Assembly: GCF_000189775.2 (NCBI RefSeq) | Contig: NC_015555.1 | Location: 82,501-146,500, forward strand | Source of the DNA: Thermoanaerobacterium xylanolyticum LX-11 | Lineage (GTDB): Bacteria > Bacillota > Thermoanaerobacteria > Thermoanaerobacterales > Thermoanaerobacteraceae | DNA: 64,000 nt | Direction of reading: 5' to 3' | Shown here: in pieces, positions 14,776 through 16,615 of the stretch | Layout: every line of letters starts with the position of its first letter | How positions within the stretch are numbered: the stretch's first letter is position 1 | The notes under the pieces: model-generated | What the model saw: only the letters and a program-made list of their open reading frames with translations | Told to the model about the DNA's origin: nothing | Databases searched by the model: none | Program-made: the position numbers and the translations under genes

Positions 14776-15591
14776 ATGTCTGGAAGATTGTATTTGTGCC
14801 CAACACCAATTGGAAACTTGGAAGACATAACCTTAAGAGTTTTAAAGGTGCTTAAAGAAGTGGACATAATTGCTGCTGAAGACACGAGGCAGACTTTAAA
14901 ACTTTTGAATCATTACGACATAAAAAAAACCGTAGTAAGCTACCATGAGCATAACAAAGCTTCAAGAGGCGAAAAACTTTTAATAGATTTAAAGGCTGGG
15001 AAGAATGTAGCGCTGGTTACTGATGCTGGTACACCGGGCATATCTGACCCTGGGGAAGACCTTGTAAAACTTTGCTTAGAAGATAAGATAAATGTAGTAT
15101 CGCTTCCCGGCGCTACAGCAATAACAACGGCATTAGTAGGCTCTGGGCTTGACACAAAGAAGTTTGTTTTCTTAGGATTTTTGCCAACAAAGAAAAGCGA
15201 GAGAGAAAGCGCTTTGGATGAGATAGGGAGAGAAAAGAGAACGGTTATCATTTATGAGGCGCCTCATAGAATTGTCAGGACGTTGGAAGAATTAAAGCCA
15301 TACATAGAAGGCAGAAAGGTTGTAATAGCAAGAGAGCTTACAAAAGTGCACGAAGAGTATATAAGGGGAACGGTAGATGAGGTTCTATTAAAATTAGGAG
15401 ATGATGTAAAAGGAGAAATTGTGGTCCTTATAGAAGGTGGGAAAAATCAAGTTGCGATGGAACCAAAGGAGCTTCTCAGAAAATACATTGAATGCGGCAT
15501 GGATAAGAAAGAAGCGATTAAATTGACGGCTAAACAATTAAAAATACCAAAAAGCGAAATTTACAAGCTCGCATTGAAGGATGAATCGTAA
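14776..15591 (+). CDS. rsmI: 16S rRNA (cytidine(1402)-2'-O)-methyltransferase
   Basis: A 271-residue enzyme of the tetrapyrrole-methylase fold that methylates C1402 in 16S rRNA. It begins with LYLCPTPIGNLEDIT and carries AAEDTRQT, YHEHN, TDAGTPGISDPG (SAM binding) and the late GEIVVLIEG segment, all diagnostic of RsmI. The C-terminal DKKEAIKLTAKQL region is the small helical domain. It probably shares a message with trmN6, one base away. Confidence 0.96.
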   Translation: MSGRLYLCPTPIGNLEDITLRVLKVLKEVDIIAAEDTRQTLKLLNHYDIKKTVVSYHEHNKASRGEKLLIDLKAGKNVALVTDAGTPGISDPGEDLVKLCLEDKINVVSLPGATAITTALVGSGLDTKKFVFLGFLPTKKSERESALDEIGREKRTVIIYEAPHRIVRTLEELKPYIEGRKVVIARELTKVHEEYIRGTVDEVLLKLGDDVKGEIVVLIEGGKNQVAMEPKELLRKYIECGMDKKEAIKLTAKQLKIPKSEIYKLALKDES

Positions 15592-15609: not shown

Positions 15610-15721
15610 TATCAATTGATAATGATAATCAATAATTTCGGCTATAAAAATATCTTAATATATTGCATAATTTTTAGTTTAAGCATATAATATGTATTAT
15701 ATTAAAAATTATCAATTGATA
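15610..15721 (+). promoter_or_regulatory. Metal-regulated promoter region of the CDF exporter
   Basis: TTGCAT (15663-15668), a 17-bp spacer and TATAAT (15686-15691) form a strong promoter. Two identical 12-bp palindromes TATCAATTGATA sit exactly 100 bp apart at 15610-15621 and 15710-15721, one on each side of the promoter. The first runs into GATAATGATAATCAATAAT (15618-15636), which matches the classical Fur box at 16 of 19 positions. The second lies just before the Shine-Dalgarno site. A Fur-family or similar metal-sensing repressor is inferred. Confidence 0.6.
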
Positions 15722-15736
15722 CAAAGGGGTTTTACG

Positions 15737-16615
15737 ATGAATTCATTTAAAAAGATAAAGAATGTTTTGATACTTATACTTTTTATAAATATAGCTGTGG
15801 CGTTAGCTAAACTTTTGTACGGCTTGCATATAAAAAGCGCCAGTATGGTGGCTGATGGGTTTCATTCATTATCAGACAGTTCAGGTAATATAGTAGGCCT
15901 TGTAGGCATATATTTGGCGTCAAAACCGCAGGATGAAGAACATCCTTATGGGCATAAAAAATTTGAGACGTTTTCGTCAATTTTTATATCTGTGATGCTA
16001 TTTGTAGTAAGTTATACTATACTAAAAGAAGCTTATGGCAGGCTTTTAAATCCTGTAGAACCAAAAATCACGTTAGACAGCTTCATAATAATGATTACTA
16101 CATTATTGCTTAACATATTTGTATTTGCTTACGAGTACAGGCAAGGAGTAAATTTAAAAAGCGACATACTTGTATCTGATTCACTTCACACAAAAAGCGA
16201 CATCTACGTGTCTGTCTCTGTTCTTATAACACTTATTGCATTAAAACTTGGAATACCGCCATACATCGATCCGCTGATGTCTATAGCAATATCGATATTC
16301 ATCGTAAAAGCAGGTATTGAAATAATAAAGCACAGCTCCGACATTTTGTGCGATAGGATTGTCATAGATTCAGAAAAAATCCGCGACATCGCTTTATCCG
16401 TAAAAGGTGTGCTTTCATGCCATCAAATAAGAAGCAGAGGTAGAGAAGACGACATAAATATAGACATGCATATAATGGTTGACCCGAGTGAAAATATAAA
16501 AGATGCTCATTATATAGCTGATCAGTTGGAAGAAAAATTAAAAAAGGAAATACCTGGTGTTACAGAAGTCATTGTTCATATAGAGCCTTACGATAAAAAT
16601 GAAGTAACAGAGTAA
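15737..16615 (+). CDS. Cation diffusion facilitator metal exporter
   Basis: A 292-residue member of the CDF family, which exports divalent metals in exchange for protons. There are about six membrane helices in the first 200 residues and a cytoplasmic C-terminal domain (about 205-285). The transport-site pairs are His43/Asp47 (HSLSD) and His151/Asp155 (HTKSD), the H-D/H-D pattern typical of zinc-type carriers. HPYGHKKFETF is the conserved loop. ATG 15737 follows AAAGGGG. The Fur-like operator upstream suggests metal-dependent control, perhaps by iron, which does not fully agree with the zinc-type site. Confidence 0.9.
   Translation: MNSFKKIKNVLILILFINIAVALAKLLYGLHIKSASMVADGFHSLSDSSGNIVGLVGIYLASKPQDEEHPYGHKKFETFSSIFISVMLFVVSYTILKEAYGRLLNPVEPKITLDSFIIMITTLLLNIFVFAYEYRQGVNLKSDILVSDSLHTKSDIYVSVSVLITLIALKLGIPPYIDPLMSIAISIFIVKAGIEIIKHSSDILCDRIVIDSEKIRDIALSVKGVLSCHQIRSRGREDDINIDMHIMVDPSENIKDAHYIADQLEEKLKKEIPGVTEVIVHIEPYDKNEVTE

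Follow-up and report, generated by a model that had tools for sequence, protein, structure and literature searches.

The closest described systems come from Bacillus, where Fur turns on pfeT, which encodes an iron exporter, and MntR turns on CDF exporters (PMC9993123). In B. subtilis, pfeT is Fur-activated and PerR-repressed and, like the gene considered here, is a Gram-positive metal exporter gene with a Fur box (PMC9993123; PMC7762939). Moreover, Fur can exert its effect by keeping a second repressor from acting (PMC7762939). The product of pfeT is a P1B4-ATPase iron exporter, whereas here it is a CDF; the second regulator of pfeT, PerR, has its own box, while the second element here, TATCAATTGATA, matches no PerR box. 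The B. subtilis genes for MneP and MneS are CDF genes as well; they are directly activated by a metalloregulator (MntR), and their products export Mn and Fe (PMC9993123). Their regulator, however, belongs to the DtxR family; our locus shows no evident MntR-type box, and the MntR gene of this genome lies at mntH. In the same superfamily, iron export has been reported for FieF/YiiP-type CDFs of E. coli, AitP of Pseudomonas, and FeoE of Shewanella, whose regulators were "yet to be identified" according to a 2020 review (PMC7762939). The first metal residue is D in YiiP and H in our exporter. Finally, the operator consensus of Clostridioides difficile Fur has been given as TGATAATVAWHWTCA, and the regulon is discussed there in terms of iron uptake and metabolism, the word efflux being absent from the main text of that study (PMC6311696).

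The locus described here lies in a 64-kb stretch of the Thermoanaerobacterium xylanolyticum LX-11 chromosome (hereafter, the window). By prediction, its block 15610-15721 is a conserved operator that controls a CDF metal exporter gene through two sites. The features of the region are as follows.

14776 to 15591, plus strand: rsmI-like gene of the tetrapyrrole methylase family (ORF; Pfam PF00590)
15610 to 15621, no strand: site A, palindrome TATCAATTGATA, 11 of 12 columns invariant in nine genomes
15615 to 15633, no strand: Fur-type box ATTGATAATGATAATCAAT over the right part of site A, with the core TGATAATGATAATCA at 15617-15631
15663 to 15668, plus strand: -35 element TTGCAT, conserved
15686 to 15691, plus strand: -10 element TATAAT after a 17-bp spacer, from the sequence
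15710 to 15721, no strand: site B, palindrome TATCAATTGATA, in the inferred 5' UTR, 10 of 12 columns invariant in nine genomes
15723 to 15729, plus strand: Shine-Dalgarno-like AAAGGGG, from the sequence
15737 to 16615, plus strand: CDF metal exporter of 292 aa (Pfam Cation_efflux and ZT_dimer; TIGR01297 CDF)

The sequence-only reading of this region had reported twin 12-bp palindromes 100 bp apart, a TTGCAT-17-TATAAT promoter between them, and fusion of the upstream palindrome to a Fur-box-like sequence matching at 16 of 19 positions. All three are borne out: TATCAATTGATA is found at 15610-15621 and 15710-15721, exactly 100 bp from start to start, the promoter elements are at 15663-15668 and 15686-15691, and a hand count for GATAATGATAATCAATAAT, which the upstream palindrome overlaps, gives the same 16 of 19 against the classic 19-bp Fur box. 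An exact search of the whole 2,534,358-bp Thermoanaerobacterium genome yielded these two copies of TATCAATTGATA and none elsewhere, with 0.9 copies per genome expected from the base composition; the reversed control had no copies in the same 2.53-Mb genome. In the 64-kb window, TATCAATTGATA is the sole perfect 12-nt palindrome with a repeat at most 200 bp away. When two mismatches are allowed, its frequency in the window is at the chance level, and hence the significance rests on the exact twin and its conservation. That frequency is what would be seen if the palindromes had arisen by chance in AT-rich DNA and had no function; this explanation is refuted by the conservation in nine genomes and the recurrence at distantly related CDF genes, and its probability is negligible. 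A search of the promoter against a plasmid collection gave no match, and the titles found in a literature search for ATCAATTGAT show no described operator.

All nine Thermoanaerobacterium genomes searched keep the upstream block TATCARTTGATAATGAWAATCAATAA, the TTGCAT-17-TATAAT promoter, and the downstream palindrome. In these genomes, 24 of 26 columns are invariant at 15610-15635 and 10 of 12 in the downstream palindrome, against 9 of 26 in the variable stretch from site A to -35. Three copies have one substitution each, at site A in one case (L039) and at site B in two (L042, L045). In the sister genus (G001), where the protein is 73% identical, the inspected upstream region has the promoter and neither palindrome. 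A wider TATCAATTGATA regulon was not found in the genus, as the other exact copies inspected were coding or unconserved at promoters. The distance between the sites is 100-102 bp within Thermoanaerobacterium and 78-90 bp elsewhere; thus the spacing of exactly 100 bp is true of the window, but it is not a conserved constant, since it varies from 78 to 102 bp across lineages.

The pair is also found at other CDF genes. A TCAATTGA pair, with one copy above -35 and the other between -10 and the start codon, is present at a 27-29% identical Thermoanaerobacter CDF and its Thermoanaerobacterium counterpart, and around CDF promoters of Clostridium bovifaecis and Clostridium sp. BSD9I1. A pair of the same type lies at a third CDF in genome G009, where the second copy reads TCAGTTGA. 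We scanned 37 genomes of the class with the pattern TCAATTGA-N72-102-TCAATTGA and its reversed version as a control. By hand count, the scan yielded 31 loci, 22 of which were CDF promoters; the reversed pattern yielded none. The inspected non-CDF loci (L177-L180) were within coding DNA, and one twin-site CDF (genome G035) belongs to another family of the order. With a stricter twin pattern applied to 398 genomes of the phylum, all eight loci were CDF promoters. When 106 CDFs were placed in a tree, those with twin sites fell into three well-separated clades. The sequence comparison thus shows the twin pair and its promoter at CDF genes from several genera and no fewer than three CDF clades; the pair has essentially no other occurrences. 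The paired regulatory element proposed earlier around the CDF promoter is real, being conserved in the genus and recurring at distant CDF genes. No regulator gene adjoins the twin-site CDFs in any lineage inspected, and therefore the protein reading the sites is probably a global regulator.

Several observations concern the leader and the promoter themselves. We infer a transcription start near 15698, which places the center of site B at approximately +18, its core being 26 bp below the start of -10. The exporter leader has no Rfam match to a metal riboswitch (NiCo, Mn). In G035, the leader from site B to the CDF start (L200, about 1588-1650) contains a hairpin followed by T's (ATTCGTAGGCCGTATGGCCTGCGAATTTTTT), absent in other lineages and possibly an attenuator. 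On the minus strand of the window, 15715-15687, TTGATA within site B and TATTAT form a promoter-like pair with 17-bp spacing, which is due to the -10 region itself being nearly palindromic; it is possible that site B serves as -35 of an opposite-strand promoter (TTGATA-17-TATTAT).

The right part of site A, 15615-15633, matches the Gram-positive Fur form ATTGATAATNATTATCAAT at 17 of 18 positions and is the second equal best site in the genome. In total, the genome contains 18 matches to ATTGATAATNATTATCAAT with at most three mismatches versus 3 for the control, and the three best are at a 2-oxoacid:ferredoxin oxidoreductase gene (perfect), at site A, and at feoA (one mismatch each). In addition, site A agrees at 15 of 15 positions with TGATAATVAWHWTCA, a consensus from another species, C. 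difficile (as presented in PMC6311696), as does no other site in the 64 kb; site A thus carries the 7-1-7 inverted repeat TGATAATNATTATCA or clostridial consensus by which a Fur operator is recognized. The genome has four Fur-family genes, one of which has Fur as the best NCBIfam match and is the Fur orthologue. In most other lineages, the flanks of site A, on either side, resemble a Fur box above their own shuffles, and the flanks of site B do not. The best Fur-consensus sites near A score 13-15 of 15, including 14 of 15 in Thermoanaerobacter and Clostridium sp. BSD9I1, and are individually significant only in some lineages; several lineages reach only 12-13 of 15, scores that do not individually stand out from Markov shuffles. 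Site B reaches 10-13 of 15 in all lineages, with flanks no better than shuffles. We conclude from these sequence matches that site A is a predicted Fur-type box fused to the palindrome, and site B, a bare palindrome below the inferred start.

Some of the other Fur boxes and Fur-family genes deserve mention. The perfect box lies over -35 of the 2-oxoacid:ferredoxin oxidoreductase gene (G000:C1:2377271-2377289; L144, about 1501-1519), which suggests that expression of this iron-rich fermentative enzyme may be controlled by iron. Close to the feoAB genes and their Fur box is a Zur-like gene, with zinc ABC transporter genes after it (L005/L146, G000:C1 about 2051850-2055700), so that iron and zinc uptake genes are side by side. 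A divergent fourth Fur-family gene is located ∼2 kb from a third CDF gene of this genome (L006/L060, G000:C1 about 947000-950300) and adjoins a pyridine nucleotide-disulphide oxidoreductase-like gene; the nearby CDF has no twin sites. Across the family, the lone site A pattern matches, besides CDFs, almost only coding DNA and one ferritin-like gene in G009 (L242, about 1497-1520), where TATCAATTGATAATAAATATCA is upstream of the promoter and agrees with the Fur consensus at 15 of 15 positions. A ferritin-like gene with this element would fit iron detoxification. This is only a hint, as the element is absent from the orthologues in five other genomes (one of six carries the site).

The Fur box at site A ends 29 bp above -35, and hence is upstream of the promoter and not over it. 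We measured distances from the palindrome core, leaving out L076, whose promoter is uncertain, and treating G009a by hand. The distance from A to -10 is 74-76, 63-64, 54, 57, and 64 bp in different lineages, that is, ∼7.1, 6.0, 5.1, 5.4, and 6.1 turns, with G035 (57 bp, 5.4 turns) off phase. In G009a, it is 63 bp, with 23 bp from -10 to B. For site B, the distance below the start of -10 stays within 22-26 bp in every case. Given a start near 15698, A would be centered near -83 in the window; in other lineages, its center would be near -72 or -63. Class I activators work at such upstream positions, as at CRP-type promoters. This promoter-anchored geometry, with A mostly in helical phase with -10, looks activator-like; as a rough hand Rayleigh test on five independent spacings gives p ∼0.1, the phase argument is suggestive only.

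The same measurements bear on the earlier proposal that a repressor bound at both sites loops the promoter. Two identical operators do flank the promoter, as such a loop would need. However, the A-B distance is 78-102 bp, or ∼7.4-9.7 turns, and most values fall close to half-integers, where the phase is least suited to a short loop; instead of conserved spacing at integral turns, the twin-site loci have B fixed relative to -10 and A mostly a near-integral number of turns above it. Looping is therefore not favored, and we deem it quite improbable.

Our working model, in which we place about even confidence, is that iron-loaded Fur activates or de-represses the CDF exporter gene at high iron. 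It is favored because site A agrees with the Fur consensus in full, the genome has a Fur orthologue, and the other Fur boxes are at iron genes; the lack of a linked regulator gene is as expected for a global regulator. At high ferrous iron, site A, located at about -75 to -83 and facing the same side of the helix as the weak TTGCAT/TATAAT promoter, would be occupied by Fe-Fur, which would raise exporter transcription by touching RNA polymerase. Alternatively, Fe-Fur might displace a repressor that recognizes TATCAATTGATA at both sites. Under this model, the exporter would transport Fe(II), perhaps together with Zn(II) or Mn(II). The same palindrome-reading protein would most likely bind at site B as well and damp basal expression, or else Fur would bind there weakly. 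By analogy, two-input control as at pfeT is likely.

Fur alone does not explain why the palindrome is the most constant part, because site B is a poor Fur box. A dedicated metal-sensing repressor may, instead, bind TATCAATTGATA at A and B and block the promoter until released by metal, the Fur-like flank of A being either a coincidence or a competing site for de-repression by Fe-Fur. The palindrome is indeed the sole element common to A, B, and all lineages, site B at ∼ +18 is in a classic repressor position, and the side of the palindrome overlapped by the Fur-like box differs, being the right in Thermoanaerobacterium and, for the best match, the left in Clostridium, which would fit selection for the overlap itself. 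On the other hand, no regulator gene adjoins any twin-site CDF, no autoregulated repressor was found, the motif is at no other conserved promoter in the genus, and the upstream spacing pattern is activator-like. On balance, a dedicated repressor is a possibility to be taken seriously, short of an even chance. A related suggestion, offered tentatively and itself somewhat doubtful, is that an undescribed regulator dedicated to CDF exporters in thermophilic and clostridial anaerobes uses TATCAATTGATA as its operator, with Fe-Fur as an anti-repressor at the overlapping box. Three known proteins were considered as readers of the palindrome and rejected. For PerR, the box TTATAATNATTATAA matches poorly, the best match at the promoter or site B in the window having four mismatches; for MntR, mntH carries a different palindrome; and a Zur-like protein of C. 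thermocellum binds TGCAAATcATTTGCA (PMC8457756).

Site A can also be read as two tandem Fur-like boxes with TATCAATTGATA as their junction (...ATTATCAAT/ATTGATAAT...), and so Fur alone might bind both sites, A strongly and B weakly, so that moderate iron would activate the gene and very high iron would turn it off. In Thermoanaerobacter, site A comprises two Fur-like 19-mers sharing AT, with 15 of 18 matches on the left and 14 of 18 on the right, and site B has one perfect half-site, ATTATCA or TGATAAT. We consider binding by Fur alone unlikely: the distal half-sites of B are poor everywhere, and it is difficult to see why an exporter should be silenced when metal is at its highest.

The exporter gene is directly downstream of the rsmI-like gene in Thermoanaerobacterium and Thermoanaerobacter, the same neighbor being present at L048, L188, and L046. 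On its 3' side are a gene for an AbrB/MazE-type protein, on the opposite strand, and two Gate-domain genes. All close relatives of the window exporter are Thermoanaerobacterium proteins, its closest PDB relative is Shewanella FieF/YiiP, and it scores below the cut-off of every NCBIfam equivalog or metal-specific model. The metal site is H43-D47/H151-D155. The sequence-only reading had taken these zinc-type H-D/H-D sites as making an iron box puzzling. The sites are present; the paradox, however, weakens, since 100 of 106 CDF homologues, archaeal ones included, have H-D/H-D, and the same operator drives CDFs with a D-D/N-D site. Judging by these sequences, H-D/H-D appears to be the norm within this CDF group and not a sign of zinc, and the predicted Fur box points to iron. 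The D-D/N-D site is found in four twin-site CDFs of one Thermoanaerobacter clade (L053-L056), which have retained the twin operator and thus represent a natural experiment on metal selectivity.

Taken together, the metal of such an exporter cannot be read from the H-D/H-D signature alone. Here the sequence points to Fur for a CDF exporter in transformable bacteria: the box and the geometry are defined, and conservation extends throughout the genus. In addition, distantly related exporters have a second, unexplained element in common. If Fe-Fur does act as an anti-repressor against a TATCAATTGATA-reading regulator, the result would be an iron switch built from two proteins, a type of control not described before for CDF exporters.
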